Shown in pieces: positions 1,695-41,470 of a stretch of 51,672 nucleotides of DNA. How positions within the stretch are numbered: the stretch's first letter is position 1; each line of letters opens with the position of its first letter. Source of the stretch: Bacillota bacterium. Lineage in GTDB: Bacteria > Bacillota > Clostridia > DSM-8532. The stretch is from assembly GCA_022702935.2 (NCBI GenBank), contig JAKIML020000089.1, forward strand, positions 1 to 51,672. The letters are read 5' to 3'. Made by a program: the position numbers and the translations under genes. The notes under the pieces are model-generated. The model did no database searches, was not told where the DNA came from, and was given only the letters and a program-made list of their open reading frames with translations.

Positions 1695-1739
1695 AGAAAT
1701 AACTCCTTTCTTTTATTGATTTGGAGAGCATTGAGAGCC

Positions 1740-2729: not shown

Positions 2730-2749
2730 TGCCCTGGCCTCCCTTTGGT

Positions 2750-6234: not shown

Positions 6235-6247
6235 CCAAACGAACCCC

Positions 6248-8321: not shown

Positions 8322-8331
8322 GCCTCTCCTC

Positions 8332-10139: not shown

Positions 10140-10142
10140 AGA

Positions 10143-13088: not shown

Positions 13089-13111
13089 AGTCCCCTTCTT
13101 TCGGGCAATGG

Positions 13112-13132
13112 AATAGTGCATTTATTATGCAT
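13112..13132. promoter_or_regulatory. Candidate operator A, TGCAT-N5-ATGCA
   Basis: A perfect inverted repeat TGCAT-TTATT-ATGCA (13117-13131) preceded by AATAG. It lies 14-28 bases after the predicted transcription start and just before the ribosome binding site of the 981-aa binding protein, so a bound protein would block the operon. Similar sites lie at 13309-13330 and before the LacI-type gene. Assignment to that regulator is an inference. Confidence 0.5.
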
Positions 13133-18993: not shown

Positions 18994-19842
18994 TCACGGG
19001 GATTCGCCAACATAGCGCAAAAACGCCAGGGCCCTGTCCTTGTGGCTGGCATTTGAGGGGATAACGGCAACCCATTCCTTATTGTCATTCTTAAAATTGC
19101 ATAGATAGCGATACAGGGTGGTATCAGGGTTCACCCTTATTCCCTTTGGGGCAGGTATTCCCTTGGATACTGATGCATGGACGGTCTGCTCCTGTGAATT
19201 CCAAAGAGGCATAGGCTCAAAGCCCATCTCCAATAGCTTTGAAAACTGCTGCTCTTTCAGAATCAATACATCCACATCCTCGGGCGGATAAAGGGTGAGA
19301 CCGCCAACAGGCATGCCCGTGTCCACAAAGAGACTGTAATACTCGACAATGGGCTTATCGAGGCAGAGATACTCCTTCAACTCGCTCTGATAGGCCCGAA
19401 CAAGCTGAATGCGATATTGATACTCCATCATACTGGCCGTCGGATCATGGAGGACCATAATCCTCAGATCCACGGGTTTGTAGTTGACAATGCCAAGGAT
19501 AATCAGCGTCAGCACCAGCATAACGACGGTATAAATGACCTTGGCCCGATGCTTTTTTAGAAAAGGGCCTGCCAGACGGGTGCCATACCGCCATGCCCTG
19601 CTGCTTAAGCTCTGGCTTTCCAGGGGATAGAGCCATTCCAGCTCTTCATCGGTGATTCTTTTATATAAAAGACTTTCATAGGCTTCCTTCATCTCCTCTA
19701 ACTGTTGAGGAGTGTACTCCAGGGCCTCGCCCATTAGATGCCTCTTATAGAGCTTTACAAAAAGTTCGTATTTCTTCTCTATATCCGATAAACTTGTACC
19801 TGGCTTAATTTTCAGAATGCTGTAGGCTTTCCAGTCATTCAT
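18994..19842 (-). CDS. Membrane protein with degenerate J-domain-like N-terminus
   Basis: A 282-aa protein I do not recognise as a whole. Residues 1-65 look like a DnaJ-type helical hairpin (WKAYSILKIKPGTSLSDIEK, then EEMKEAYESLL), but the HPD tripeptide needed to stimulate DnaK is absent; the loop reads KRHLMGEALEY. A membrane helix lies near 103-120 (VIYTVVMLVLTLIILGIV). The C-terminal 160 residues should face outward and carry no motif I know. It ends 82 bases before the HAD start and is divergent from the histidine kinase gene, so it may be linked to either. Confidence 0.65.
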   Translation of the reverse strand: MNDWKAYSILKIKPGTSLSDIEKKYELFVKLYKRHLMGEALEYTPQQLEEMKEAYESLLYKRITDEELEWLYPLESQSLSSRAWRYGTRLAGPFLKKHRAKVIYTVVMLVLTLIILGIVNYKPVDLRIMVLHDPTASMMEYQYRIQLVRAYQSELKEYLCLDKPIVEYYSLFVDTGMPVGGLTLYPPEDVDVLILKEQQFSKLLEMGFEPMPLWNSQEQTVHASVSKGIPAPKGIRVNPDTTLYRYLCNFKNDNKEWVAVIPSNASHKDRALAFLRYVGESP

Positions 19843-19971: not shown

Positions 19972-21198
19972 ATGGACAAAAAAAGCCACATCCTTCTCAC
20001 GGCAATCATTTATCTATGCCTAGTGTTAACTTTTATAACAACCCTGTCAGGAAACCCGGACCAAGCGTTCAAGCTTCTTCCCCTGTTTCTTTTACTGATT
20101 CTTTCCTTTTACTTGAGAAGAATTTTTCTTGAAAGAACTGGCTTCTATCAGGTCTTGGCAAGACTTATATTTATAGTGGATGTTCTCCTGGTTTATTTTA
20201 TCTCCATGCTGGATATGTCCAAGGTTTCTGAGCTTTACTTCTATGTGCTTATGATTGATGCCATCCTGTGGTATCCCCTCAGATTCAGCATTCTCACAGG
20301 TTTTGTTACATATCTGGCCTACCTGTTTGTTCGGTTTGCGCGCTACATAAAATGGAATGTCTTTGATTTCGACTATTTTGCGCCCTCACTCTATGATAAC
20401 GCCCTTTACTTTATATTAATCTTCCTTATTGTTTATATTGCAAAAAAGCAATTTATACAGAGCCAGATTCTGGCCAGCACCATGTCCCAGTTGGAAGCAC
20501 GAACCCAAACACTTCAGGAAACCAATCTCAAACTCAAGGAATCCTTAAAGGAGCTCGAGAAAATGACCGCCATCAATGAACGCAACCGGATCGCCCGGGA
20601 GATTCATGATACTGTAGGGCATACGCTGACCACGGTTCTCATTGAAATAGAGGCGGGCAAGCGACTGATCAACAAAAACAATACATTGGCTGCTGAAAAA
20701 CTGGAGCTGGCCCAGAGCCAGGTTCGTAAAGGTCTTGAGAGCATCCGTCAATCGGTTCGTGCCTTAAAGGAAGGGGATGACATTCTCTCGCTGATCCCGG
20801 CCATAGAATCCCTTATCCGTGAAACCAAGACCCATGCCGATGTAAAAATAGATTTTACCTACGATTCAGATCTGGCTATTTCCGAGGCTCAGGGGAAGGT
20901 ACTTTTCAGTGCTCTTCAGGAAGGGTTGACCAATGGAATACGGCACGGTCAATGCACGGCTTTTACCTTTTCCCTGAAAAACAGGAAGGATCATATTCTC
21001 TTTCAACTCAAGGATAATGGTCTAGGCTGCGAACATATCAATTTTGGTTTTGGGCTGACCGCCATGAAAGAACGGGTACAGGCTCTCGGCGGAGACCTTA
21101 GCATTAGGTCAGACGTTAACCAAGGATTCGAGCTAACCATTATGATGCCTGTTGGTGAGGTGGAACTTAATGAAGAAAATCAGAATGCTTATTGCTGA
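19972..21198 (+). CDS. Sensor histidine kinase, HisKA_3 type (LiaS/DesK-like)
   Basis: A 408-aa kinase with five to six membrane segments in residues 8-157 and short outer loops, so it probably senses membrane state or a membrane partner. A coiled coil (165-200) leads to the HisKA_3 dimerisation helix NERNRIAREIHDTVGHTL with phospho-acceptor His212. The ATPase domain has the N-box EGLTNGIRHG (Asn321), DNGLG (348-352) and GFGLTAMKERV. The start is ATG without a clear Shine-Dalgarno. The response regulator start lies inside its 3' end, so the pair is coupled. It heads the unusual transport array. Confidence 0.93.
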   Translation: MDKKSHILLTAIIYLCLVLTFITTLSGNPDQAFKLLPLFLLLILSFYLRRIFLERTGFYQVLARLIFIVDVLLVYFISMLDMSKVSELYFYVLMIDAILWYPLRFSILTGFVTYLAYLFVRFARYIKWNVFDFDYFAPSLYDNALYFILIFLIVYIAKKQFIQSQILASTMSQLEARTQTLQETNLKLKESLKELEKMTAINERNRIAREIHDTVGHTLTTVLIEIEAGKRLINKNNTLAAEKLELAQSQVRKGLESIRQSVRALKEGDDILSLIPAIESLIRETKTHADVKIDFTYDSDLAISEAQGKVLFSALQEGLTNGIRHGQCTAFTFSLKNRKDHILFQLKDNGLGCEHINFGFGLTAMKERVQALGGDLSIRSDVNQGFELTIMMPVGEVELNEENQNAYC

Positions 21199-21835
21199 TG
21201 ATCAGACCCTTATGAGGGATGGATTAAAGACCATCTTTGATCTGGAGGATGACATAGAGGTCATTGCGACCGCAGAAAACGGGGAGCAAGCCCTTTTATT
21301 AACGCAACAGCTTCGTCCCGACGTGGTTCTCATGGATATTCGCATGCCCATCATGGATGGCGTCGAAAGCACACGTCTTATAAAAAAACAGTTTCCTGAG
21401 GTCATTGTTATCATTCTGACCACCTTCAACGATGATGAATATATCGTTCAAGCTCTCAGTTTTGGGGCCAGCGGCTATCTTTTAAAGGATATGCCCGGGG
21501 AACGACTAATCCAAGCTGTTCGGGACGGTATCACAGGGAATCTTATGATGCCTTCCTCGGTTGCGGCAAAGCTTGCCGGACGCTTAAGCAATATGCGGAA
21601 GGCCGAAATGGATCGCATAAAGGAGCTATCGGAACGTGAATTAGAGATCGCAAAGCTTATTGTACAGGGAAAAAGCAATCGGGATATAGCCAATATGCTC
21701 TATATCACCGAGGGTACCGTAAAAAACTACATCAGTGCCATCTACAACAAGGTGGGTACTAACGACAGAGCCAAAGCCATTGAGATATTAAAGCATACTC
21801 TAGATAGAACTGATGGGGAGAGTGAGGTTTCATGA
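21170..21835 (+). CDS. Response regulator, NarL/LuxR family
   Basis: A 221-aa regulator. I chose ATG 21170, preceded by GGTGAGGTGG; an upstream in-frame GTG is inside the kinase gene. The receiver domain has the acidic pair LIADDQ, phospho-acceptor Asp56 in VVLMDIRMPIMDG, Thr in ILTTFND and Lys in YLLKDMP. The C-terminal LuxR-type helix-turn-helix reads LSERELEIAKLIVQGKSN followed by TEGTVKNYISAIYNKVG. It overlaps the kinase by 29 bases and the next gene by 4. Likely targets are the operon itself and the repeated boxes at 23083-23124. Confidence 0.94.
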   Translation: MKKIRMLIADDQTLMRDGLKTIFDLEDDIEVIATAENGEQALLLTQQLRPDVVLMDIRMPIMDGVESTRLIKKQFPEVIVIILTTFNDDEYIVQALSFGASGYLLKDMPGERLIQAVRDGITGNLMMPSSVAAKLAGRLSNMRKAEMDRIKELSERELEIAKLIVQGKSNRDIANMLYITEGTVKNYISAIYNKVGTNDRAKAIEILKHTLDRTDGESEVS

Positions 21836-23082
21836 GAAGAATAGCCTTTTTATTCATCGCTATTCTCCTGCTAACTCTCCAGGGCTGCAGCTTGTTCTCT
21901 GCATACCAGGAAAGCGTAAACACCATAGATGTGCCTCGAGTTATAGAACCTCTTGATCTGCATCGGACTATCCTGGATGATTTGCCCGGCTACAATGCTT
22001 ATAGCAAGGAGGCCATGCAGGTTGACTTGCGCGGCTACGACCTGACCAATCTCAAGATCAATGATCGCCTGAATACGCTCCTGTTTGCAGATTTTGACAA
22101 TCATACCAAATGGCCTTATTGGTTGCCGGAGGGGTTTGATCCCAAAAAGATCATGGCTTATGGAAAAAACCCCGGACTAGGCATAAAAAGCCTCCATCAA
22201 CAGGGCATCACAGGAAAGAATATTGGTATTGCAATTATCGATGATGTGCTCTTACCCGATCACATTGAATACCAGCATGCTTTGGCATGCTATGAAGAGA
22301 TTACTGCGATGAACACGGAAGCCTCCGTCTCCGGAGGGCAGCTGGCATCACTGACTGTTGGAAAAACGGTTGGAATCGCCCCTGATGCCAAGCTCTACTA
22401 CTTTGCTGAATACCACCTATCCGAACCCGCTGTCTCCTCCTACCTTGACACACGCAGCGATTACAAGGTACTGCAATATCAACCTCTGGTGGAAGCCATC
22501 AACAGAATTCTTGAGCTGAATGAGATGCTGGATGAATCCCATAAAATACGGGTCATATGTATTGGTCAATCCATTCCCCCCTACAGCCAAGCCTTTTACT
22601 ATGTGGAGAAATCCATAAAAAGGGCTCAAGAAAAGGGGATCTTTGTTATTTCATCCCTTCTTTATGAGACCTCAGACTACACCATGGATTTTAATGGGCT
22701 GGGAAGGGAGCCCATGGCCGATCCCGATGATTTGTCATCCTATATGCCAGCCATCAGCTATTCTTCCAACTTTTATACCTTCGGTCGGTACGTTCATGCA
22801 CAGGAGGGCTTGTTACTGCCTATGGACGCCAAGTGTACTGCCGCACCCACAGGAAAGAAGGACTATGCATTCTACCGGCAAGGCAATAAAGGCATAAGTA
22901 TGGCTTATATTGCCGGGATGTATGCCCTGGCCTGTCAGGTAAACCCGGAGATCACGCCTGAAGCCTTCTGGGAAGCGGCCCTCAAAACAGGTGATGCGCT
23001 GACATTCACCAAGAACAGTACTGATTTTACACTCAAAAAGATCATCAACCCCGTCAGACTCATTGAAGAAATCTCTTCATAG
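21832..23082 (+). CDS. Subtilisin-like lipoprotein, probable pseudoprotease
   Basis: A 416-aa lipoprotein (lipobox LLTLQGC, Cys19). It follows the S8 subtilase fold: an Asp motif IGIAIIDDVLLPDH (Asp137 or 138), GIAPDAKLYYF matching the usual GVAPxAKL, and a Ser motif GNKGISMAYIAGMYAL (Ser356). Where active enzymes have HGTHVA, this one has VSGGQLAS (about 166-173), with no His. The oxyanion Asn region reads FVISSLLYET instead of an A-x-G-N motif. Both losses point to a non-catalytic fold. It is translationally coupled to the response regulator by an ATGA overlap, so it may be a sensor or binding partner of the kinase rather than a protease. Confidence 0.8.
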   Translation: MRRIAFLFIAILLLTLQGCSLFSAYQESVNTIDVPRVIEPLDLHRTILDDLPGYNAYSKEAMQVDLRGYDLTNLKINDRLNTLLFADFDNHTKWPYWLPEGFDPKKIMAYGKNPGLGIKSLHQQGITGKNIGIAIIDDVLLPDHIEYQHALACYEEITAMNTEASVSGGQLASLTVGKTVGIAPDAKLYYFAEYHLSEPAVSSYLDTRSDYKVLQYQPLVEAINRILELNEMLDESHKIRVICIGQSIPPYSQAFYYVEKSIKRAQEKGIFVISSLLYETSDYTMDFNGLGREPMADPDDLSSYMPAISYSSNFYTFGRYVHAQEGLLLPMDAKCTAAPTGKKDYAFYRQGNKGISMAYIAGMYALACQVNPEITPEAFWEAALKTGDALTFTKNSTDFTLKKIINPVRLIEEISS

Positions 23083-23124
23083 TCATATGACTTAACTTAT
23101 GACTTTCATGGATTATCATATGAC
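23083..23124. promoter_or_regulatory. Repeated TCATATGAC boxes, candidate response-regulator site
   Basis: TCATATGAC occurs at 23083-23091 (inside the palindrome GTCATATGAC) and at 23116-23124, exactly 33 bases apart, about three helical turns. A related CTTATGACT lies between them at 23096-23104. They sit directly after the pseudoprotease stop and 66 bases or more before the binding-protein array, so the array may have its own regulated promoter. No clean -35/-10 could be fixed. Confidence 0.4.
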
Positions 23125-23189
23125 ACTCCTGTATGTTACTTTTTTATTGGATCCTTTTTCCATACCAGTCTCGTACAGGAGATATTAAG

Positions 23190-24057
23190 ATGAAACACCT
23201 TATTACGTCCCTCTTAATACTGGCCCTGCTTTTGACCTGTACATCCTGTCAGAGTATGGATGGTACTGGTCGCAACTCAGATCTCAGCATTTATCTTCTT
23301 GATTATGATTACTTGACAAAACAGTCTGTTGAGAAGCTTAACTCGGGTCGGGAGAAGGGGAAGGTTAATATAAAGATTTTTAATAGAGAAGATATACAGG
23401 AATATCAGGATACTCTGCTTTCAGAGCTGTCCCATGGCACCGGACCTGATATCATTGTTTTGTACCCTCATTATATTGAAAATATCGCCCAATATCTCAA
23501 CCTCGATGCCTTTTATAACATCAATGAGCTCATCCAGAAGGACAGAAAATTCAACATTGCAGATTATGATAACCGAATATTATCATTCCATTCCCCACCG
23601 CTGAGATCGGGTCCAAATTCCCCGCAAAACTAAGCGATGTTGTCAGTATCAATGCAAAGTGCAAATATCAACAAGCTGCTTTTGACTTTGTCAAGATTCT
23701 TTTATCAGAGGACATACAAAGAGAATCTTTAGGCTACGGCGTTCCACGCATTGCCATCAATAAAGACGCTTTTATGAAGGAGATCGATTCAGCAAAGAAA
23801 CAAGACAGCGGCTACTTCTACACTTATTATGGACCCAATCTGAGCTCAAGAAAGGAGATTAAAATGTTGCTTTACCTGATGCACTCGTTGACGCAGCCAT
23901 TGGCTTAATGAATCATATGGCCGCTCCTGCCCCCTTGGATATGGAAGTCGAAAAAATTATCAACGAAGGACTTCAGGCTTACCTTTCAGGGAAGCGCACC
24001 GCAGAACAGGCCGCAAAAGAGATCGATGAAAAAGTCACACTCTTCTTGAATGAGTAA
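23190..24057 (+). pseudogene. Collapsed double-domain binding-protein gene (internal deletion, frameshift)
   Basis: This is the wreck of a third copy of the two following genes. The ATG (23190, after ACAGGAGA) opens the same lipoprotein signal and the first ~127 residues of domain 1, up to DYDNRIL. The sequence then jumps at about 23583 to the last part of domain 2: in another frame it reads FPTAEIGSKFPAKLSDVVSI and onwards. A second frame change lies near 23850-23868, after which LPDALVDAAIGLMNHMAAPA runs to the shared C-terminus and a TAA at 24055-24057. About 580 codons are missing. The first open frame ends at 23633 (147 aa). A short secreted fragment could still be made, but no transport function is expected. 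Confidence 0.85.
23983..24034 (+). repeat. Near-identical C-terminal repeat, copy 1
   Basis: About 50 bases encoding the LSGKRTAEQAAKEIDEKV segment at the 3' end of the pseudogene. The same DNA recurs at 26619 and 29262 with only two to four differences, far closer than the rest of the genes, as expected from recent duplication or gene conversion. Confidence 0.8.
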
Positions 24058-24101
24058 TTAAATGCTTTTATTAACGTTTACGATACAGGAGGAATACCAA
24101 A

Positions 24102-26693
24102 ATGAGACGATCTATCATATTTCTTTTAATACTTGCACTGCTTTTAACCTGTACATCCTGCCAGAGCAAGGACACAAGCACCAATAATTCGGATCTCACC
24201 ATTTATCTTTTGGACTCGGATCTATCCACAAAACAGGCTGTGAATAGATTTAACTCAGCACGGGAAAAGGGCCGGATTAACATAAGGACCTTTTTCACAG
24301 ATGAGATACAGAAGCTTGGAGATACTCTTTTTTCCGAGCTTTCCAACGGTACCGGGCCCGATATCATTGTATTATACGCTACCTATATACATAACCCCAC
24401 CCAATATTTCAACCTTGATGCCTTTTATGATATCAATGAGTTCATCAGGAAAGATAAAGCGTTCAAAACCGAAGATTATGACAACAGAATCTTAGACTGT
24501 GGGGTCAAAGACGGGAAGCGGTACCTGATACCCTTATCCTATACAGTGGATGCGCTGTTCACCACAGGAGAATTATTGCAAACCCATAATCTTAACACAG
24601 ATAAGAAGATTCTGTCTCTTGATGACCTGAATACTCTGGCTAAAAGCTTTACGCCTCAAGATGGTACCGCATTTATTAATTCTCTCCCATACATAAGCTT
24701 CCTCAATTATTTCGTTGACCCCATGAAGCAGACAGCTTCTTTTGATACTGAAGAATTCAGAATTTTCATGGATCAATATCAAGCCCTTAATCAATCTGCT
24801 ACAGTAGTTACCGAAAATTCATGGGATTTATCTTTGCTATCTCAAGGCAAGGTTGCACTTTTTAATATGCCTATAAGCAATGCAAACAACACATTCTGGC
24901 CATATCAAACCTATTATAAGAATGGTGTAGATCCTGTCCTCCTGTGCTATACTTTATCCGATCAGGAATATAGCATACCGGCAACACCCTCGGTAATGGT
25001 GGGCATCAATAAAAACTGCGCCAATAAAGAAGCCGCTTATGAGTTTATCAAGCAGCTTCTTTCAACCGAAGATCAACAGGCAAGGGGCAAAAATGAAGCT
25101 TTTCCTGTCAATCTTGCGGCATATGAAAAAGTCATGGAGGGTAACCTTGATTTTAACACAGAACAATCCGCCAGTAGTATCGACAATGCGGCTATGATTC
25201 GTTTGATTGCTCAGATGGATGAAATGGCTAAAGGAAAGCTCATATGCAGGGTTCAGGATTACAAGATAGGTGATATCGTTCATGAGGAGCTCATGAACTA
25301 TCAGACAGGCAGCAAGACCAGGGAGATGGCCAGCAGAGATATACAGAGCAGGGTCATAGCTTATTTTAAAGAGGTTCCCTCTGTCAACGCACCTTCTTCT
25401 CAGTCAGACACCCCCTCTCAGGTTGAAAAATTAACCCTGCACTTTATGGAGTTTAATGCTTATATTAAGAATGCCATCCGCGCCTTCAACGAGAAGTATA
25501 CAGATGTTCAGATCGAAGGAACATCGTATCCCGTTTCAAATTTTGAAAACTATAAAACACAGTTGACCACCAGTGTTATGGCCGGTGAAGGCCCCGATAT
25601 TCTCATCTATAGAACATTCTTCTTTAATTCGTTATCAAAGACCATGGCCACCGGAGCTTTTGCTGATCTGAACCCATTGATTGAGAATGATTCTTCCTTC
25701 GACACCACGGCGTTTTATCCGGAGATCTTTAATGCCGGAATAATCAATGGCAAGAGGTATTTTATTCCACTCTACTTTACCATCCCGAATCTTTATGCAA
25801 AAAAATCAGGACTTGCTGAATTAGGTTTAACTGCCGCTGAATCTGGATGGACATTGAATGATCTTAAGGATATCGTTACCAAATGTAAGGCTTCAAATCC
25901 TGCCGGTGATCAGTACCTCTTTAACTCCCCCATGGATTTTCTTTCGTTTGTCCATTCCAGCGGATTACAGCTTGTCGATTATCAGAATAAAACTACCAAC
26001 TTTCAATCAAAGGAATTTATCGACCTTATGGTGCTTTATAAAGAAATGGCCCCATTAATTTTATCCAGTGAAGCAGAGTTGAATTTGGGCATCTCCCCGG
26101 CTCTCTTGAAGGATGACAAAGTCAGGATGATTTACTTAGGTGACCTGGCACCAACTAACCTGACAGTATATAACTCCGTCATGACTCATCTGATGGGTGA
26201 TGACTTTATTATTCTGCCGTTCCCTACCGCGGAAACCGGGGCCAAGTATCCTGCAGAGCTGAAGGACGTGGTCTCCATCAATGCAAGGTGCAGGAATCCG
26301 CAAGCTGCCTTTGATTTTATCAAGATTCTTCTGTCTGAAGATATACAAAGAACCTTTGACAGCCATGGGATTAATAATATTCCTTCGGGGCAACCCGTAA
26401 ATAAAAACGCCTATATCAAGGATATTGAGGCAGAAAAGAAGAATCCCAGCGGTAATCTGATCACTATGAGTGATGGCATTAGAACAATGACGTTTAAGGG
26501 TGTTCCTTTAACGGATACAGTTGCTGACATGGGTGTTAACCTAACCAACCATATGGCTGCCCCTGCTCATCTGGACTATGAAATTGAAAATATAATCAAC
26601 GAAGGGGTTCAGGCTTATCTTTCAGGGAAGCGCACCGCAGAGCAGGCCGCAAAGGAAATCGATGAAAAAGTTGCTCTCTATTTAAATGAATAA
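24102..26693 (+). CDS. Lipoprotein with two tandem substrate-binding domains (copy 2)
   Basis: An 863-aa lipoprotein (signal ending LLTCTSC, Cys20; AGGAGGA ribosome site). Domain 1 spans about 32-430 and domain 2 about 445-863, joined by a Ser/Pro/Gln linker. The two halves align with each other: NGTGPDIIVLY with AGEGPDILIYR, DGKRYLIPLSYTVDALF with NGKRYFIPLYFTIPNLY, KEAAYEFIKQLLS with PQAAFDFIKILLS. Both resemble type-1 sugar-binding proteins. Two linked sites on one anchor could raise avidity for a long ligand or feed the permeases in turn. It is followed by a close paralogue and two CUT1 permeases. The ligand is unknown. Confidence 0.87.
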   Translation: MRRSIIFLLILALLLTCTSCQSKDTSTNNSDLTIYLLDSDLSTKQAVNRFNSAREKGRINIRTFFTDEIQKLGDTLFSELSNGTGPDIIVLYATYIHNPTQYFNLDAFYDINEFIRKDKAFKTEDYDNRILDCGVKDGKRYLIPLSYTVDALFTTGELLQTHNLNTDKKILSLDDLNTLAKSFTPQDGTAFINSLPYISFLNYFVDPMKQTASFDTEEFRIFMDQYQALNQSATVVTENSWDLSLLSQGKVALFNMPISNANNTFWPYQTYYKNGVDPVLLCYTLSDQEYSIPATPSVMVGINKNCANKEAAYEFIKQLLSTEDQQARGKNEAFPVNLAAYEKVMEGNLDFNTEQSASSIDNAAMIRLIAQMDEMAKGKLICRVQDYKIGDIVHEELMNYQTGSKTREMASRDIQSRVIAYFKEVPSVNAPSSQSDTPSQVEKLTLHFMEFNAYIKNAIRAFNEKYTDVQIEGTSYPVSNFENYKTQLTTSVMAGEGPDILIYRTFFFNSLSKTMATGAFADLNPLIENDSSFDTTAFYPEIFNAGIINGKRYFIPLYFTIPNLYAKKSGLAELGLTAAESGWTLNDLKDIVTKCKASNPAGDQYLFNSPMDFLSFVHSSGLQLVDYQNKTTNFQSKEFIDLMVLYKEMAPLILSSEAELNLGISPALLKDDKVRMIYLGDLAPTNLTVYNSVMTHLMGDDFIILPFPTAETGAKYPAELKDVVSINARCRNPQAAFDFIKILLSEDIQRTFDSHGINNIPSGQPVNKNAYIKDIEAEKKNPSGNLITMSDGIRTMTFKGVPLTDTVADMGVNLTNHMAAPAHLDYEIENIINEGVQAYLSGKRTAEQAAKEIDEKVALYLNE
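26619..26670 (+). repeat. Near-identical C-terminal repeat, copy 2
   Basis: Second copy of the ~50-base block encoding the shared binding-protein C-terminus. The conservation covers synonymous positions as well as amino acids. Confidence 0.8.
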
Positions 26694-26735
26694 CTGAATA
26701 ACCAGTCTTTGTAATTCTATAAAGGAGTCATTCCT

Positions 26736-29336
26736 ATGAAACGCTTTATCACACTCCTCTTAATGCTTGGTATACTTCTGTCCTGTACATCCTGTCTGAG
26801 CATAGATACAGCCAGGAGCAACTCAGATATAAGCATTTATCTCTTTGAACAGGATACGGCAACAAGGCAGTCTGTTGAGAAGTTTAATCTAGGCCGCCAG
26901 AAGGGTAAGATTAACATTCAAACTGTTGCTGCGGAACGGATTGAGGATTATCAGAACGCTCTTCTTTCAGATCTTTCCAACGGCAAAGGGCCTGATATCA
27001 TCATGCTGTACCCCAGCTATATTGACAGTCTCGCCCAGTATCTCAACCTTGATGTCTTCTATGATCTCAATGCGCTCATCAAGGATGATAAAGCCTTTAA
27101 ACTGGATGACTATGCTGACAGAGTTATAGACTGTGGGGTTAAAGACGGAAAAAGGTATCTGTTCCCCCTGGCCTACACCGTGGAAGCGCTATTCTCAACA
27201 GAAGAGATACTTAAGACCCATAATCTGAGTATAGACAAGAGGGTTCTGTCTCTTGAGGATATGCTGGCCTTATCCAAAAGTTTTAAAGAAGCGCAGAACG
27301 GAGACATGTTTATCAATGCTCTCCCCTCCATGGGTTACATCAATCATTTTGTTGATCCCTTGACCCAAACAGCTTCTTTTGACAATGAGGAGTTCAAAAT
27401 GTTCATGGAGCAATACCAGGCGCTTCATCAATCGGTCACAGTCGTTGCTGAAAACTCCTGGGATTTATCCTTACTCCCCCAGGGCAGGGTGGCCTTGCTC
27501 AATTTGCCTATTTACGGTGTTCACAGTACTCTTTTACCCTACCAGCTATATGATAAGGCAGTGTCAGATCCCGTCCTCCTTAGCTATTCACCATGGGGTC
27601 AGGAAGGGAATGCCATAGCCACCCCCTCTGTCCTGGTAGCTGTCAATAAGAACTGTGCCAATAAAGAAGCAGCCTTTGAGTTTATAAAAACCCTACTTTC
27701 AACCGATGCTCAGATGGAACGAGGTCAAATTGACGGTATTCCGGTAAATTGGGAGGCCTATGAAGAAATTAAGGAAGACAGCAGCAACAGAATCTCTGCG
27801 TCGACAGGGGGTATCAGGGATGAGGAAGCGCTGCGCCGTCTCACAACCCAACTGGATGAAATCATTAAAGGGGATCTTATCTGCAGGATTCAGGATCCGG
27901 GAGTCGGTAATATCATTAGTAAAGAGTTGATGAACTATCTGGCAGGAAGCAAGACCAAAGAAGCTGCAAGCAAGGATATGCAGGACAGGGTGAACAGCTA
28001 TTTTAAAGGTATTCCTTCCCCGGAGCAGACTCCAACCCCTACGCCTGCCGCTCCCCGAAACGTCACCAACCTGACCCTCCACTATATGGAAGATCAATTA
28101 TTTGTTAAGAATGCTATTCGTTATTTCAACGATAGCCATACAGACGTACAGATTAAAGGAACCATGCATTCCAGTAAAGATATTGAGAACTTCAAAACCA
28201 TGCTGACCACCAGTGTTATGGCTGGCGAAGGCCCTGATCTTCTTGTCTATAGACCCAATCTTTTTAATTCATTGACAAAAACAATGGCAACCGGAGCCTT
28301 TGCTGATCTGAACCCATTAATAGAGGGGGATCCCTCTTTTGATACGTCCGCATTTTATCCGGAAGTTTTTAATGCAGGCGTATTCAATGATAAAAGGTAC
28401 TTCATTCCACTTTACTATGAAATTTCAACCCTTGTAACCTCTAAAACATCACTATCCTCATTGGCCCTGACATTGGATGAGGCAGGATGGACAATGAACG
28501 AACTTAAAGACGCTATTCATAATTATAAGGCTTCAAATCCATCGGGCAGTCAGTACTTCTTTGATCATTACATGAACTTTCTTTCACTGCTCCGTTCCAG
28601 CGGATTGCAGCTTGTGGACTACCAGAATAAAACAACAAGCTTTCAGTCAAAGGGATTTATCGAGCTTATGGTGCTATATAAAGAAATAGCCCCTCTGGTT
28701 CCTTCTCTGGATACAGAATTGAGTCTGGGCCTAACTCCGGTTCTCTTGAGGGACAATGTCGTCAGGATGATTTATTTGGATCCCCAAAAACCCAGTTACC
28801 TGGCCCGGAACAATGCTATTGCAACAAGCTATCTGGGGGATGACTTCGTTATTGTGCCGTTCCCCACTTATGAAGCCGGGGCCAAATACCCTGTAAGGCT
28901 GTTTGATGTGGTGTCCATCAATGCACAGTGCCAAGACCAGCAAGCTGCTTTTGATTTCATCAAGATTCTTCTTTCTGAAGAAATTCAAAAGACAAAAACC
29001 AGCCATGGATTCTACAATGACACAAGCGGTATGCCCGTAAATAGATATGCCTACTTAAATGAGATAGAGGAGCTAAAGGCTCCCTCAAACAATGTGGGAC
29101 TCATCGCTGTCAGCAATGGCGTGGAAACAACCTCGGTGAAATCTATTCCTTTGACTGATGAAGTCGCTGACATGGCCATGGGCATTATTAATCATATGGC
29201 TCCTCCCATTCACCTGGATCAGGAAATAGAAAACATTATCAGTGAAGGGCTTCAGGCTTATCTTTCAGGGAAGCGCACCGCAGAACAGGCCGCAAAGGAA
29301 ATCGATGAAAAGGTATCTCTCTTCTTGAATGAGTAG
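26736..29336 (+). CDS. Lipoprotein with two tandem substrate-binding domains (copy 3)
   Basis: An 866-aa paralogue of the preceding gene with the same layout: signal ending LLSCTSC (Cys20), domain 1 to about 430, a linker EQTPTPTPAAP, and domain 2 to the end. Its domain repeats are visible as DGKRYLFPLAYTVEALF and NDKRYFIPLYYEISTLV. Divergence from copy 2 is spread over most of the protein, but blocks such as MATGAFADLNPLIE and SSGLQLVDYQNKTT are almost unchanged. It is 43 bases after copy 2 (AAAGGAGT site) and 9 bases before the first permease. The copies may bind different ligands for one shared pore. Confidence 0.87.
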   Translation: MKRFITLLLMLGILLSCTSCLSIDTARSNSDISIYLFEQDTATRQSVEKFNLGRQKGKINIQTVAAERIEDYQNALLSDLSNGKGPDIIMLYPSYIDSLAQYLNLDVFYDLNALIKDDKAFKLDDYADRVIDCGVKDGKRYLFPLAYTVEALFSTEEILKTHNLSIDKRVLSLEDMLALSKSFKEAQNGDMFINALPSMGYINHFVDPLTQTASFDNEEFKMFMEQYQALHQSVTVVAENSWDLSLLPQGRVALLNLPIYGVHSTLLPYQLYDKAVSDPVLLSYSPWGQEGNAIATPSVLVAVNKNCANKEAAFEFIKTLLSTDAQMERGQIDGIPVNWEAYEEIKEDSSNRISASTGGIRDEEALRRLTTQLDEIIKGDLICRIQDPGVGNIISKELMNYLAGSKTKEAASKDMQDRVNSYFKGIPSPEQTPTPTPAAPRNVTNLTLHYMEDQLFVKNAIRYFNDSHTDVQIKGTMHSSKDIENFKTMLTTSVMAGEGPDLLVYRPNLFNSLTKTMATGAFADLNPLIEGDPSFDTSAFYPEVFNAGVFNDKRYFIPLYYEISTLVTSKTSLSSLALTLDEAGWTMNELKDAIHNYKASNPSGSQYFFDHYMNFLSLLRSSGLQLVDYQNKTTSFQSKGFIELMVLYKEIAPLVPSLDTELSLGLTPVLLRDNVVRMIYLDPQKPSYLARNNAIATSYLGDDFVIVPFPTYEAGAKYPVRLFDVVSINAQCQDQQAAFDFIKILLSEEIQKTKTSHGFYNDTSGMPVNRYAYLNEIEELKAPSNNVGLIAVSNGVETTSVKSIPLTDEVADMAMGIINHMAPPIHLDQEIENIISEGLQAYLSGKRTAEQAAKEIDEKVSLFLNE
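29262..29313 (+). repeat. Near-identical C-terminal repeat, copy 3
   Basis: Third copy of the ~50-base 3' block. It differs from copy 2 at only a few positions. Confidence 0.8.
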
Positions 29337-29344
29337 GTAAAAGT

Positions 29345-30238
29345 ATGAAGAAACAACATTCCCATGGTCCCTTCTTAAAACTGAAGACAAAAGAGGCCCT
29401 TGCAGGGCTGGGTTTCGCATTGCCCAGCCTTGCCGGCTTCGGCCTGTTCTTTGTGGTGCCTTTCTTTTTAAGCCTGTATTATTGTTTTACCGAAGGTATT
29501 GGAGATATGCGCTTTGTAGGGCTTAAAAACTTCCAGTCCCTCTTTCAAAGCAGCTCGTTTCGGCTTGCTTTGAAGAACACCCTACGGTTCACTGTCCTCA
29601 GCCTACCGCTTATTTTTATTGTTTCCCTGAGCTTTGCCCTGATTTTGAATACAAAGATGAAGGGGCTTCCCTTTTTTCGCAGCCTATTTATCCTGCCCCT
29701 CGTCATTCCTGTAGCCTCAGTCATTTTAGTATGGCAGATTGTTTTTCATGATAAAGGCTTTCTCAATACTGTCCTGAGCTTTTGGGGTATCCCTGCCATA
29801 GACTGGCTCAACAGCGAGAACGCCTTGGCCATCCTTATTATGCTCTACATCTGGAAGAACTGCGGCTATAACATGATCCTGCTATTGGCGGGACTGAACA
29901 ATATTCCCAAGGAGTATTATGAATCGGCACGTATAGATGGTGCCGGGTCCTTGCTATGCTTTTGGAAAATCACGCTGCCCTATCTGGCCCCGTCAGGATT
30001 CTTTGTCCTGGTTATATCCATTATCAACGCCTTCAAAGTTTTTCGCGAATCCTACCAGTTAGCAGGCAACTACCCCCATCAAAGCATTTACATGCTTCAA
30101 AATTTTATGAACAACAATTTTCATAATCTCTCCTTACAGAGGTTGTCCACAGCAGCCCTTTTAATGCTTATCATTATAGGGCTCCTCGTCTCTTTCTTAT
30201 TCAGAATAGAAGCACGGATGAGGAGGAATCTGTCGTGA
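29345..30238 (+). CDS. Sugar-type ABC permease (MalF-like)
   Basis: A 297-aa CUT1 permease with six membrane segments. The EAA loop is YYESARIDGAGSLLCFWKIT. It lies 9 bases after the third binding-protein gene and overlaps the next permease by 4 bases, so all are on one transcript. It should form the pore of an importer fed by the tandem-domain lipoproteins. Sugar specificity is only the family default; peptides or other envelope molecules cannot be excluded given the odd partners. Confidence 0.9.
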   Translation: MKKQHSHGPFLKLKTKEALAGLGFALPSLAGFGLFFVVPFFLSLYYCFTEGIGDMRFVGLKNFQSLFQSSSFRLALKNTLRFTVLSLPLIFIVSLSFALILNTKMKGLPFFRSLFILPLVIPVASVILVWQIVFHDKGFLNTVLSFWGIPAIDWLNSENALAILIMLYIWKNCGYNMILLLAGLNNIPKEYYESARIDGAGSLLCFWKITLPYLAPSGFFVLVISIINAFKVFRESYQLAGNYPHQSIYMLQNFMNNNFHNLSLQRLSTAALLMLIIIGLLVSFLFRIEARMRRNLS

Positions 30239-31113
30239 GCATCATTATCAAAAGAAGTCTCTCACAGGGGATTAGAAAGCTATTTGTTTATACCGTCCTG
30301 GTATTGGCAGCCATACTCCTGCTTTTTCCCATTATCACCATGCTGTGCAACGCAATGATGGAAAGCAGAGAGGTCATTGAAGCCTATGCCTTTCTTGGCA
30401 GTGGTGTTAAGATAGAAGGAAATATTGGCCTTAAGCTTATTCCGGATAAGGTCACACTTATCCAGTACTACAATGTACTATTCAGAAAACCCACCTTTTT
30501 AATGATGTTCTGGAACTCAGTGATTATCACTGTCCCCATTGTAGTGGGACAAATTGTCGTGTCGGTATTGGGGGCCTATGCCTTTGCCAAATTAAAGTTC
30601 CCATTAAGAGAGCCCTTGTTCTTTACCTATATCATCGTAATGCTGATGCCCTTCCAGGTCACCCTGGTCCCCAATTTCATCATGCTGAGGCAATTAAAAC
30701 TCCTGGGCTCCTATGCAGCGGTTATCCTCCCCGGCATCTTCTCCACTTTTGGTGTATTCCTTTTACGGCAGTTCATGGTTCAGATTCCGGACGAATATTG
30801 CGAAGCGGCAAAAATGGATGGTGCCGGTTACTTTTTTACTTTTTTCAAGATTATCCTTCCCCAATGCAAGGGAGCTGTTGCTTCACTGGCTATTCTTGTA
30901 TTTATTGATAACTGGAATATCGTTGAACAACCTCTCATCTTTCTTGATAATGCGTCCAAGTACCCTTTATCGGTTTTCCTATCCCAAATTAACCTCAGCG
31001 AGCTGGGTGTTGCCTTTGCCTGCGGTGTACTTTTCATGCTTCCAGCCCTGCTTGTTTTTCTCTACGGCGAAAACTATCTGGTAGAGGGTATTCAACACTC
31101 GGGACTTAAATAG
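30235..31113 (+). CDS. Sugar-type ABC permease (MalG-like)
   Basis: A 292-aa CUT1 permease with six membrane segments and the EAA loop EYCEAAKMDGAGYFFTFFKI. It starts at a GTG that overlaps the stop of the partner permease. Residues about 50-75 form a longer extracytoplasmic loop than usual (SGVKIEGNIGLKLIPDKV). The HlyD-type adaptor gene follows after 11 bases with a GGAGGAG site, placing importer and adaptor in one operon. Confidence 0.9.
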   Translation: MSIIIKRSLSQGIRKLFVYTVLVLAAILLLFPIITMLCNAMMESREVIEAYAFLGSGVKIEGNIGLKLIPDKVTLIQYYNVLFRKPTFLMMFWNSVIITVPIVVGQIVVSVLGAYAFAKLKFPLREPLFFTYIIVMLMPFQVTLVPNFIMLRQLKLLGSYAAVILPGIFSTFGVFLLRQFMVQIPDEYCEAAKMDGAGYFFTFFKIILPQCKGAVASLAILVFIDNWNIVEQPLIFLDNASKYPLSVFLSQINLSELGVAFACGVLFMLPALLVFLYGENYLVEGIQHSGLK

Positions 31114-31124
31114 GAGGAGTCATT

Positions 31125-32804
31125 ATGACCGGTTCAAAAAAGAGTATTATAAAGCATACTGCCATAGTCTTCTTACTCACAACGCTTTTATTGACCTTCT
31201 TTTCCAGGACCATTAATCAATATTTGCTTCCAGAGGTCGAAGTAAGGCTTGCTTCCCGTGGTACCCTTCAAAATGAAACTAAAGCCTCGGGTGAGGTTAA
31301 AATCCTACATACCAAGAAAATATACTCCCCAGGAAGTCTTGACATAAAAGAGGTCCATGTTAAGAAGGGCGACACCGTATCATCGGGGGCAATTCTTTTA
31401 ACAGTGGACACTTCCCAAGCCAAACTGGAAATCAAGAGCATGGAGCTTGAGCTCTTAAGATTAAGAAATGATCTGAAGGATTATGAGGAGAGCCTTAAGC
31501 CCTTTGATGCGGTACCCTATGAAAATGAGATTGCGCTGGCGCAGAAGACCGTAGAGAGAGAGAAACAGAATCTTGATATCATTCGAGCCATATACAGCAA
31601 GGATGTGCAGGATCATATCGATGCCGCGTCCGAAAGGGTGAAGCAGGCTAAAAAGGATTTGATTGATAAGGAAAAACTCCTGGAAGAAAAAAAGAAAGAG
31701 GCTGAAAATGAAAAAGAAGTTTATGAACGTACTGTTAAGGAAATGAAGCTTGCAATTGCGATTAAGGACATGGAGATTGGTCAGGTCCTTGAAAACCATT
31801 CTAATTTGTCTTATGATGACCAGCTTATCCTTCTCAACAGGCTTGAGCTTGAATACCAGCAGCTTAAAAATCAATTGGAGATCTACAAATTAAACTACAC
31901 CCCCATCGACATCACCTTCTACGAAGAGGCTATTACCATTGCAAAGGAGACCCTTGCCCAGGAAGAGGAAAACCTCAAACAGGTTATCGAGAGCTATGAG
32001 CAGAGCTCTGAGAATCGTTTGCGCCTGTTTAATGCCCAATGCAGCCTTGAGAATGCCGAGGTGGCTTTGATGGAAAAGCAGGAGCAGCTCATAAAAAAGC
32101 AGGAAGAATCCCTTTCCGAGCAAGAGCGTCTTGCACGTAATATTTCAGAAAAGAAAGCTGAAATCCAGTTCAAGTCGCAGCAACTGGACAATCTGAAAAA
32201 GTCCATTCCTAAAGACGGAAAAATTACTGCCCCATGTGAGGGTGTGATAAGATCGGTGGGTGTGGAAAGCGGTCAAATCAGCAACAATCAACAGGTCCTT
32301 TTTGAGATTCTGGAGAGCGATTCGACATTTTCTGTTCAATGGCTGATGAATCCGGCGCAATCAGAGCATGTCAAGGCAGGAGACAAGGTCAGCCTGAAAA
32401 TTAAGGGTGAGAGTGATATCTACATAGATGGTCTCGTTGACGAAAAAACTTTCTCTTCCGCGCATGGTATGTATCTTTTTACATCAGATATCTCCGCACA
32501 GGCTGAATATCCTCTGGAGGAAGGCCAGGAGGTTGAGGTAACCATACAGGAAGCAAGCAAAAGCTATGATCTCATTGTCCCCACCCGCTGCATATCCATG
32601 CAAAACGGTATGAACTATATCTTTGTCCTCAGAGAGCGACAGGGCGCTTTGGGTCATGAATACTACGTGGAACAGGTGAATGTCACCATCATCGAATCAG
32701 ATGTTCTTAATACAGCCATTAACGGATATATCAACCCCGAGGACAAGGTGGTGGTTGATAGTTCTAAAGCCCTATTCCATAACGCACAGGTGAAGTTGAG
32801 GTGA
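31125..32804 (+). CDS. HlyD/MacA-type membrane fusion (adaptor) protein
   Basis: A 559-aa adaptor. One N-terminal membrane anchor (about 10-28) is followed by a first lipoyl/barrel half (VKKGDTVSSGAILLTVD), a very long coiled coil (about 95-360, rich in K/E/L/Q) and the second lipoyl half (KITAPCEGVIRSVGVESGQI). A beta-barrel and membrane-proximal region then run to the C-terminus. The coiled coil is long enough to span a good part of the Gram-positive wall. Such proteins normally work with a MacB-like ABC permease, and one follows 6 bases later. No outer-membrane channel is expected in this organism. Confidence 0.88.
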   Translation: MTGSKKSIIKHTAIVFLLTTLLLTFFSRTINQYLLPEVEVRLASRGTLQNETKASGEVKILHTKKIYSPGSLDIKEVHVKKGDTVSSGAILLTVDTSQAKLEIKSMELELLRLRNDLKDYEESLKPFDAVPYENEIALAQKTVEREKQNLDIIRAIYSKDVQDHIDAASERVKQAKKDLIDKEKLLEEKKKEAENEKEVYERTVKEMKLAIAIKDMEIGQVLENHSNLSYDDQLILLNRLELEYQQLKNQLEIYKLNYTPIDITFYEEAITIAKETLAQEEENLKQVIESYEQSSENRLRLFNAQCSLENAEVALMEKQEQLIKKQEESLSEQERLARNISEKKAEIQFKSQQLDNLKKSIPKDGKITAPCEGVIRSVGVESGQISNNQQVLFEILESDSTFSVQWLMNPAQSEHVKAGDKVSLKIKGESDIYIDGLVDEKTFSSAHGMYLFTSDISAQAEYPLEEGQEVEVTIQEASKSYDLIVPTRCISMQNGMNYIFVLRERQGALGHEYYVEQVNVTIIESDVLNTAINGYINPEDKVVVDSSKALFHNAQVKLR

Positions 32805-32810
32805 GAAAAG

Positions 32811-34175
32811 GTGACTGATAAAAGCATACAGAAATATGCCTTCCGAAAAACCGCCCTATCCCTTGCCTTGCTTCTCCTCTTCTCTTTAGCTGTACCGGCG
32901 TTCAACGCCTGTTTTCGGTTAAGTGAGTCAGAAAGCTATGAAAGGGTGGAGCTTCGCGCTTTAAACATGGGTTCTGATGCCCTGATGCAGATGGATGATC
33001 TGAAGCTTCTGCAGGAGGAGTTTAAGGGGGCAACACTCTCCTTTTCCTCACTGGTTTCCACCCATCTTAAAAGCGGGGTTCAAACATTCCCCGTGTCGGC
33101 CGTTCTGACTGATTCCAATTTTGCCACATTCGCTGACTGGACCCTTACAAAAGGCAACTTCATTACCGAGGATGCCTACCTACGGGGACGTAATGTGGCG
33201 GTTATCAGCGAAGCCCTCGCAAGCAAGCTTTTTATGAGCCTCAATGTCATTGGCAACCGTGTCCAGCTCTGGGATAGGGAATATACCATTGTTGGCTTAT
33301 ACAAGCTGCCCGAGTCACTGGTTACTACCCTCAACGCCAACGGGGTGGAACAAGTCTATATTCCTATGACCAGCCATCAGGACATGAGTAAGCTGCCTCT
33401 TCAAACCGTGTTTATCAAAAGCCCTTCCCTGGCCAAGGTAACCTTTAAAGAGACCGCCTTAAACGAGGTAATGATAAAAAAACTCAAGCTTGATATTAAT
33501 GCATACAAAATAGTGCTCTATGACAAGAAACCGGCTCTTCTTGCACAGTTTCAGGATATCCTTAACTTTTGCGTAGCCTTGGGATTGAGTATAAAAATCA
33601 TCAGGCTTTTGCTGTATTTTTGGAGAAAGAGTCTTTCATTCATAAAGAGCAACCTGGAAAATATGTATTTAGGCAGTTTCATAAAGCGCTATTTCATCCG
33701 CTGTCTTATGTTCCTTATCATCACCTTTGCAGGTGTAGGCGCGATTTATATTGTTTTTCGATGCTTCCAGCCCCAAATCTATATTCCTTCCCAGTATCTG
33801 CCCCAGGAGAACATCTTTGACTGGAAGTTCTATATAGAGACAGCTAAAAAAGAGATTCAGCATCACAACGCTATGTATCATTATCTGCCTACAGCACTGG
33901 AATCAAGCTATTCTACACTTTTGGTGATCAATCTCATACTGCTGGGATTATCCCTTCCTGCCCTATTCTCCTTATCCAAAGGGATTAAGCTGAACCAATA
34001 TCTCAAAATGGGTATTGGCACCACTATCGCCATGGGTATGTCTGCTCTGCTCATGGCTGTCTCAGGCCATATGCTCCTCACTTTATGGGGATTCTATGAA
34101 TGGGTGTTCCCCATCAAAGGCCTCTTGCTCCTTATGGCCTATTACATCGTCAACAGCATAGCCATTAAGGATTAA
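32811..34175 (+). CDS. MacB/FtsX-like permease without ATPase domain
   Basis: A 454-aa membrane protein with a GTG start after GAGGTGAG. One helix lies near residues 15-32, then a MacB-type periplasmic core (about 35-235) with motifs WTLTKGNFITEDAYLRGRNV, NVIGNRVQLWDREYTIVGLY and VYIPMTS. Further helices lie near 245-260, 290-315, 368-390, 400-425 and 430-450. The core-then-FtsX layout is that of MacB/LolC-type permeases that move lipoproteins, peptides or signals across the outer face. No nucleotide-binding domain is attached and none is encoded nearby. Its 3' end overlaps the converging flavoprotein gene by 11 bases. Confidence 0.75.
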   Translation: MTDKSIQKYAFRKTALSLALLLLFSLAVPAFNACFRLSESESYERVELRALNMGSDALMQMDDLKLLQEEFKGATLSFSSLVSTHLKSGVQTFPVSAVLTDSNFATFADWTLTKGNFITEDAYLRGRNVAVISEALASKLFMSLNVIGNRVQLWDREYTIVGLYKLPESLVTTLNANGVEQVYIPMTSHQDMSKLPLQTVFIKSPSLAKVTFKETALNEVMIKKLKLDINAYKIVLYDKKPALLAQFQDILNFCVALGLSIKIIRLLLYFWRKSLSFIKSNLENMYLGSFIKRYFIRCLMFLIITFAGVGAIYIVFRCFQPQIYIPSQYLPQENIFDWKFYIETAKKEIQHHNAMYHYLPTALESSYSTLLVINLILLGLSLPALFSLSKGIKLNQYLKMGIGTTIAMGMSALLMAVSGHMLLTLWGFYEWVFPIKGLLLLMAYYIVNSIAIKD

Positions 34176-34842
34176 TCTTTGTGTCAGAAGACTTTAGTAC
34201 ATTCGCTACTAGAGGGCGAATACGTTCCTCAATAAGGGCCCAGTTCTGTGCGATGTCAGGAAAAACAGCATCTGCTCTGGGCTGTATGCAGGAATCATCC
34301 TCAAGCCCAAAGGGTGCTCCCAGGGGGAAGTGCTCATTAAGTTCTGCTATGACAAAGCCAAAGCTTTTCAAGGTGCTGGCTATGGGCTTTATCAACCCAT
34401 CATGGTAATAGCGCAGGCTCTCCTGATTCTCGGCCATTCCGCCATGGCCAATGATCCCCACCACCTTTCCGGTAAAGGGGGACTCAAACTGGGGAATCTT
34501 CAGCCAGCTTCCATAGATGATCTCGTTTATTTTTTCAAAAAGGGCGACAAGCTTTGAAGGGATGGGTGAGTAATGCGGCACAACGATAAAAATTCTGTCG
34601 GCCTCCCTCATTCGGTCAAAAACCTCGTTGAATTCCCTGTCATAAGGGCACTGGCCTTCCTCACTGCAATCACCGCATAATAAGCAGAATTTGATACGTT
34701 GATTCATGAGCGTAAGAATTTCAACCTCGTGGTCGCCATTGATTTCCTTGACGATTTTCTCAATAAGACCACAGGTCTTGTAAGAGGTACTGTTCATACC
34801 CATATGCTGTGTGTTGGAAGCTGATATGCAGAGGATTTTCAT
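34165..34842 (-). CDS. Flavodoxin-fold NAD(P)H-dependent FMN reductase family protein
   Basis: A 225-aa flavoprotein. The N-terminal MKILCISASNTQHMGMNSTS is the FMN-phosphate loop, and DRIFIVVPHYSPIPSKLVAL is the second FMN contact. A Cys cluster CLLCGDCSEEGQCP (about 53-66) resembles that of iron-sulfur flavoproteins, and could hold a cluster or be redox-active. About 40 extra C-terminal residues follow the core. The substrate is unknown. It converges on, and slightly overlaps, the MacB-like gene, with no terminator between them. Confidence 0.8.
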   Translation of the reverse strand: MKILCISASNTQHMGMNSTSYKTCGLIEKIVKEINGDHEVEILTLMNQRIKFCLLCGDCSEEGQCPYDREFNEVFDRMREADRIFIVVPHYSPIPSKLVALFEKINEIIYGSWLKIPQFESPFTGKVVGIIGHGGMAENQESLRYYHDGLIKPIASTLKSFGFVIAELNEHFPLGAPFGLEDDSCIQPRADAVFPDIAQNWALIEERIRPLVANVLKSSDTKINP

Positions 34843-41290: not shown

Positions 41291-41317
41291 AGGTACGAAC
41301 AATATATCTTTAAGTTT

Positions 41318-41340
41318 GGTACAGAGATGCCAACAAGATA
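41318..41340 (+). promoter_or_regulatory. PyrR-binding loop in the leader RNA
   Basis: GGTACAGAGATGCCAACAAG (41318-41337) matches the PyrR anti-antiterminator consensus as I recall it (CAGAGA then GC then CAAG). TTGG (41316-41319) pairs with CCAA (41330-41333) to present the loop. The downstream part, CCAACAAGAT, is also complementary, with one bulge, to ATCTTGTTTGG in the terminator stem, so the two structures exclude each other. Confidence 0.75.
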
Positions 41341-41403
41341 TTGCATAGGGATTTTATAGGGTTTACTGTGCCTTTGTGCCCAGCCTTATTCTGTGTGTGG
41401 ATT

Positions 41404-41434
41404 AATCTTGTTTGGTTTCAAACAAGATTTTTTT
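41404..41434 (+). terminator. PyrR-controlled attenuator terminator
   Basis: An 11-bp stem AATCTTGTTTG (41404-41414) / CAAACAAGATT (41419-41429), loop GTTT, then a run of T. It lies 36 bases before the pyrR start and should close when PyrR with UMP/UTP binds the upstream loop. Confidence 0.88.
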
Positions 41435-41470
41435 GTTGTTTAAAGTCGATCACGCAAAGGAGCGCCAATC

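Follow-up and report, generated by a model that had tools for sequence, protein, structure and literature searches.

A CUT1-type importer array with MacAB-related proteins and a kinase-linked pseudo-subtilase in a Bacillota genome

What is the role of an array that places importer permeases and efflux-pump parts beside a histidine kinase and a subtilisin-like lipoprotein? Such an array occupies positions 19972–34175 of a 51,672-nucleotide stretch of a Bacillota bacterium (assembly GCA_022702935.2, contig JAKIML020000089.1), hereafter the window. It is made up of two units: a sensor unit (kinase, response regulator and pseudo-subtilase) and a transport unit (solute-binding proteins [SBPs], the permeases PermA and PermB, an HlyD-type adaptor and a MacB-like protein). 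We favor, with a probability of about 0.5, the reading that it encodes one importer responsive to an envelope ligand, with its own lipoprotein-mediated sensor, the ligand class and mechanism being proposals. The CUT1 importer and the MacAB parts are of kinds already known; the unusual features are the MacAB-derived accessory proteins and the coupling of a pseudoprotease to a kinase. As other genomes carry this set of genes as well, the array is more than a chance assembly. A preliminary description had named a lack of recurrence as grounds for refutation; the set was instead found with synteny, complete in G056 and G032 and decayed in G030.

A transport module with MacAB-related proteins

PermA, PermB, HlyD and the MacB-like protein are encoded together in 38 loci of Clostridia and other Bacillota, mostly with an SBP gene. 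The loci were gathered by searches with the MacB-like protein and with PermB, followed by reading of the neighborhoods; as loci fetched with the MacB-like protein are selected for it, linkage is tested more fairly by the PermB search. Among the PermB-fetched loci with full flanks, only L249, in which PermB is more distant (35%), was without HlyD and MacB; the contigs of L226 and L245 end too early for full flanks. Gene order is sometimes permuted (L159 and L248), an argument that the module is held together by selection for linkage and not by recent common ancestry alone. The preliminary description had called the whole combination unfamiliar. This holds for the attachment of the kinase and pseudoprotease, which is rare, but not for the SBP–permease–HlyD–MacB part, which is common in Clostridia, although a limited search of the open-licence literature returned no description of that module.

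By Pfam, the array has the SBP and two BPD_transp_1 permeases of a CUT1 importer. It resembles the CUT1 systems that share an MsmX/UgpC ATPase (e.g., in B. subtilis; PMC7658222, PMC5730181) in its SBP and MalF/MalG-type permeases, in an operon without an ATPase gene, and in the presence of an orphan UgpC/MsmX-type ATPase in the genome. It differs from them in its fixed HlyD and MacB-like proteins, double-domain SBPs, and dedicated sensor. The orphan ATPase gene lies on contig C107, is 60% identical to a module-linked one, and has no permease gene visible within ~9 kb on either side; we infer that its product serves the window importer. In 14 loci an ATPase gene lies inside the module, of the UgpC/MalK type (one ATPase scanned gave 469 bits against the UgpC cut-off of 432, the others being matched by similarity).

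Whether the HlyD and MacB-like proteins make up a second transporter was judged by the features of MacAB exporters. Both HlyD_3 and MacB_PCD scored above cut-off. No MacB-type ATPase is encoded in the array, and the ATPases attached to the module elsewhere are of the UgpC type; the FtsX domain and the EIGxRKALG-like coupling motif are also missing. According to Pfam, the window MacB-like protein carries MacB_PCD only, with neither an ATPase nor an FtsX domain, whereas the canonical MacB of the same genome, from an HlyD–ATPase–MacB locus (L031), has MacB_PCD and FtsX; FtsX was absent from the module MacB proteins scanned. The EIGIRKALG site, after the second transmembrane helix, is where MacB couples to its ATPase. 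Sixteen of the 17 canonical MacB permeases sampled had this motif; none of the 40 module MacB-like proteins did, three loose pattern matches among the latter not being the motif. The 17 comparators came from weak first-round matches, mostly to the core domain only, and are not counted in the module. In addition, a large group of the MacB-like proteins (e.g., L233–L234, L236–L244, L250, and L251) showed by hydropathy one strong transmembrane helix near each end and no bundle.

The structural model of the window MacB-like protein (predicted local distance difference test score, pLDDT, 85.8) matched 5xu1_M with Z 18.9 over 323 residues (root-mean-square deviation, rmsd, 5.7). The model aligns over its whole length with Spr0695-type and MacB chains, which shows its descent. 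MacB itself uses ATP hydrolysis to perform work on the outer side of the membrane, by mechanotransmission (PMC5985334); as judged by sequence, this motor is gone in the window protein. The Gram-positive MacAB-like pumps YknWXYZ (PMC4887032) and Spr0693–0695 (PMC5768738) likewise place an HlyD/MacA adaptor beside a MacB core-domain protein with a MacB-like fold, but the window and module proteins differ in having no MacB-type ATPase, FtsX domain or coupling motif, and in being reduced, in some cases, to two transmembrane helices. Given these losses, the linkage to CUT1 permeases and the UgpC type of the attached ATPases, the HlyD and MacB-like proteins are probably accessory subunits of the importer. 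The two transporters of the preliminary description are thus not supported, as the HlyD/MacB pair has neither ATPase nor coupling motifs and, among the fetched loci with full flanks, is apart from this type of CUT1 permease only in the distant L249.

A sensor unit with a catalytically dead subtilase

The lipoprotein encoded after the kinase and regulator has the fold of peptidase family S8 without its Asp–His–Ser triad. The profile of its family matched subtilisins (E 2.6e-15), and its AlphaFold model (pLDDT 91) aligned with the subtilase fold over 258 residues (Z 26.5, rmsd 3.4). At the D/H/S positions of triad-bearing homologues, however, the window protein has D/S/G. The preliminary description, which had noted only the lack of a visible catalytic His, was right but understated the change, since the Ser position is lost too. 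The triad was intact in none of the seven kinase-linked copies and in 35 of 37 unlinked homologues (Fisher p ~1e-6, on related sequences, so that the difference reflects one or few events), and a lipobox-like cysteine was found in all seven linked copies. In the tree, a single branch sets these seven apart (support 93/99, recovered in 96% of bootstraps), and their clade sits inside a set otherwise composed of unlinked copies. Sequence and model thus point to a dead subtilase fixed in a signaling unit, for which solitary triad-bearing relatives serve as a comparison, and the pseudoprotease label applies to every kinase-linked copy.

A precedent for dead subtilases as signaling proteins is C. 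difficile CspC (PMC6636752). CspC and CspA (PMC6636752, PMC12880746) are, by description, also catalytically dead subtilisin-like signaling proteins of Clostridia, but soluble ones acting in spore germination, whereas the window protein is a lipoprotein beside a histidine kinase. No kinase-linked pseudo-subtilase was described in the open-licence literature covered by our limited search. The triad is also lost in two solitary copies (L024 and L092), and a large, apparently uncharacterized family of solitary triad-bearing subtilases (L080–L107 and others) is present in Clostridium-like genomes such as that of C. carboxidivorans P7.

Of 119 relatives, with the window's own genome counted, 8 had a homologue of the S8-like protein, and wider samples added further copies. 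A search of genome contigs with the single window protein gave no match; with an alignment as the query, 16 loci were obtained, several of which were solitary subtilases. Neither the pseudo-subtilase nor the MacB-like protein gave a match in plasmid searches. Seven copies (window, G031, G056, G032, G008, G600, and G597) lie directly after the same kinase–regulator pair, while the remaining homologues are solitary. In every copy with a long enough neighborhood (6/6), an SBP gene adjoins the trio. The order in G056 is kinase–regulator–pseudo-subtilase–SBP–PermA–PermB–HlyD–MacB; in G032 the SBP gene comes before the kinase and the order is otherwise the same. The window PermA is 52–63% identical to the PermA proteins of these two complete cassettes. 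An apparently decayed copy in G030 (L154) retains a kinase fragment, an end fragment of an SBP, PermA, a PermB-like start fused to HlyD, and MacB, and in G024 (L163) only the end of MacB remains, at a contig edge, which we read as another decaying copy.

All seven linked kinases begin with a membrane region of about six transmembrane helices with short loops, and they have a KWNYFDF-like motif in common. Hydropathy and alignment showed no extracytoplasmic domain in any of them: the loops measure 17–21 residues in the four copies with all six helices above the hydropathy cut-off, and the longest loop between predicted helices of the window kinase is of 17 residues. Although it shares a HisKA_3 kinase and a GerE regulator with LiaRS/NarXL-class systems, the window pair differs from them in its six or so helices and its pseudoprotease partner, and the kinase is below the curated family scores (LiaS, 61 against a cut-off of 450 bits; UhpB, 98.6 against 408). 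A kinase without an external sensor of its own, next to a lipoprotein with a binding fold, is consistent with co-sensing by the lipoprotein. Because the subtilase is dead in all seven linked copies and the kinase lacks an extracellular sensor domain, it is plausible that the signal is read via lipoproteins.

Envelope linkage and competing readings

In nine loci of other Bacillota (L181–L183 and L195–L200), the transport module is downstream of VanR–VanS. The NCBIfam scores were above cut-off for VanR in all five tested (421–430 against 350) and for VanS in all six (400.3–412 against 400, the lowest just at the cut-off). A D-Ala-D-Ala carboxypeptidase gene lies between VanR–VanS and the module in eight of the nine (Peptidase_S11 in the three scanned). 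A VanG-type D-Ala-D-Ser ligase gene follows the SBP gene in L197 and L198 (572 and 578 against 495), a shorter open reading frame (ORF) related to VanG ligase is present in L195, and FemX-like, VanW and VanI genes lie upstream in L183 (VanW and VanI above NCBIfam cut-offs). These loci tie homologues of the window module to glycopeptide resistance loci of the vanI/vanG type; for the published vanI cluster, vanX-murF-vanK-W-I-R-S, no transporter is mentioned (PMC4229326). The window array itself has neither VanR–VanS nor a Van ligase, and its two-component pair is NarL-class, unlike VanR–VanS. The linkage nonetheless supports a putative envelope role for the homologous module, and the cell-wall or antimicrobial ligand guessed at in the preliminary description gains indirect support in this way, from the relatives rather than from the array.

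In the importer that we favor, the double SBPs would bind an envelope ligand, such as a cell-wall oligosaccharide, a muropeptide or a cell-wall-active antibiotic. The HlyD and MacB-like proteins would form an extracytoplasmic stalk or gate that guides or shields the bulky ligand, and PermA and PermB would import it, powered by the shared orphan ATPase encoded elsewhere in the genome. The pseudo-subtilase, a binding fold without catalytic residues, would display the state of the ligand to the helices of the kinase, while expression of the array would be adjusted by the LuxR-type regulator. In other Bacillota, the transport module lies behind VanR–VanS instead. Gene content, linkage, and the loss of catalytic and coupling residues are read from the sequences, and the folds from the models; ligand class, stalk function, signal path and the shared ATPase are what we infer from them.

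Several observations weigh against this reading. G008 and G600 hold a minimal kinase–regulator–pseudo-subtilase–SBP set without permease, HlyD or MacB genes, so that the sensor and transport units may be only loosely coupled. The Van link comes from other taxa, and the Clostridial copies of the module are mostly without cell-wall genes alongside. Removal of the catalytic columns keeps the pseudo-subtilase clade but lowers its support to 78, and two of the linked copies are on long branches. Finally, SBPs of family 1 usually bind oligosaccharides, which makes plain sugar uptake possible.

This last point leads to the strongest alternative, which we nevertheless regard as rather unlikely: a conventional operon for oligosaccharide uptake that carries its own two-component regulator, in which the HlyD and MacB-like proteins aid the capture of polymers at the cell surface, with no involvement of the cell wall or of antibiotics. 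CUT1 permeases and SBP_bac_1 proteins, both identified in the array by Pfam, are typically for oligosaccharides, the module ATPase is of the UgpC/MsmX type, and a GH9 cellulase with CBM3 is encoded two genes after one module copy (L240). No glycoside hydrolase was consistently attached to the module in the fetched loci, however, of which only a few neighbors were family-scanned, and the recurrent neighbors are regulators and envelope genes: VanR–VanS, the D-Ala-D-Ala carboxypeptidase, the VanG ligase and, directly upstream of the module in L243 and L244 with an OmpR-type pair and an endonuclease III-like gene, an HtrA-like protease.

A more improbable alternative is antibiotic removal in the style of BceAB–BceRS, with the transporter removing bound peptide or glycopeptide antibiotics from the envelope while the kinase reads transporter flux instead of the pseudoprotease. 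The kinase does lack a sensor domain, the module is linked elsewhere to VanR–VanS, and, of the ABC (ATP-binding cassette) ATPase genes with a membrane partner that adjoin it in L159, L237, L238 and L241, those in L159 and L237 are lantibiotic-protection/PmtA-like, although below cut-off. On the other hand, the array encodes no BceB-type permease or its ATPase, its permeases are of the importer type (BPD_transp_1), and the kinase–pseudo-subtilase–SBP unit exists without a transporter. Least probable is a separate pump for efflux or lipoprotein handling, working with a LolD/MacB-type ATPase taken from elsewhere, as implied by the earlier two-transporter model: the full-length MacB/Spr0695 fold and the canonical locus in the genome would suit it, but the coupling motif is absent from all 40 proteins, FtsX is missing, many relatives keep no permease bundle, and linkage to CUT1 permeases, with UgpC-type ATPases, is near complete.

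Beyond the window, we tentatively suggest, at less than even odds, that the module represents a novel class of ABC importer. In it, a motorless extracytoplasmic stalk derived from MacA/MacB would be a fixed subunit of a CUT1 importer, and the importer, used for cell-wall ligands, would have been recruited repeatedly by different envelope-sensing kinases (VanRS, the OmpR-type pair with HtrA, and the six-helix kinase with a lipid-anchored pseudoprotease co-sensor). If the favored reading is true, the external parts of an importer can be taken from efflux pumps, and a function would be supplied for HlyD and MacB-like genes that, across many Clostridia, are currently taken for efflux genes. VanRS-linked loci would acquire a transporter component, and there would be a pseudoprotease–kinase sensor whose dead protease can be compared with triad-bearing homologues.

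Layout of the array and neighboring features

The ORF list and Pfam confirmed that all genes of the array (Table 1) are on the plus strand, within the coordinates noted earlier, and that they overlap or are separated by at most ~50 bp; the flanking genes (18994–19842 and 34165–34842) are on the opposite strand. The best count is nine intact genes and one decayed, and the eleven genes or remnants counted previously are reached only if the fragments of the remnant are taken singly. The likely start of the regulator is ~21173, while its ORF as listed opens at 21152. Scans for promoters (36 promoter-like sites against 27.5 by chance) and terminators (13 against 13.7) were uninformative.

Table 1. 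Genes of the array and their positions in the window
Feature	Position	Strand	Basis
Sensor histidine kinase, HisKA_3 and HATPase_c, six predicted transmembrane helices	19972..21198	+	Pfam HisKA_3 6e-17; hydropathy
NarL/LuxR-type response regulator	21173..21835	+	Response_reg 5e-30, GerE 9e-16
Lipoprotein with S8 fold, a pseudo-subtilase (lipobox at Cys19; no catalytic His or Ser)	21832..23082	+	Profile, model, alignment
Decayed third double-domain SBP gene	23133..24054 (end approximate)	+	Three fragments matching SBP3
Tandem-domain (double) solute-binding lipoprotein, SBP_bac_1/8	24102..26693	+	Pfam 6.7e-26, two stretches
Second tandem-domain solute-binding lipoprotein	26736..29336	+	Pfam 2.5e-31; 60% identical to preceding SBP
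PermA, CUT1 permease, MalF/UgpA type	29345..30238	+	BPD_transp_1 8e-16
PermB, CUT1 permease, MalG/UgpE type	30235..31113	+	BPD_transp_1 1e-12; relatives in 38 module loci
HlyD/MacA-type adaptor, one N-terminal transmembrane helix	31125..32804	+	HlyD_3 4e-11; hydropathy; adjacent in module loci
MacB-like ectodomain protein	32811..34175	+	Pfam: MacB_PCD only, 2.5e-16

The tandem domains ascribed to the binding lipoproteins reflect a true internal duplication, as the halves of each large SBP are ~25% identical over ~430 residues (E ~1e-32; 9e-33 for the SBP at 24102–26693). The remnant matches residues 1–132, 703–784 and 803–866 of SBP3, that is, a start, an internal deletion and a broken end, and is therefore a third double-SBP gene that has lost its middle. 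Rows of SBP genes before the permeases were also seen elsewhere, with four in L161 and two in L162, and the latter locus holds the whole transport module twice, one copy being partly truncated.

Upstream of the kinase, the divergent gene at 18994–19842 (minus strand) encodes a protein with a weak J-domain match (E 0.04), one transmembrane helix, and a C-terminal part that is SBP-like by eye. Positions 249–13121 (minus strand) hold what we take to be a second transporter array, presumably composed of an SBP, two permeases, an 860-residue protein, a small membrane protein, an NHL-repeat-like protein, two more permeases and a 992-residue protein with an SBP-like C-terminal part. At 41303–41437 (plus strand), a PyrR binding-site RNA (Rfam RF00515) was detected with 55.1 bits, barely over the cut-off of 54.

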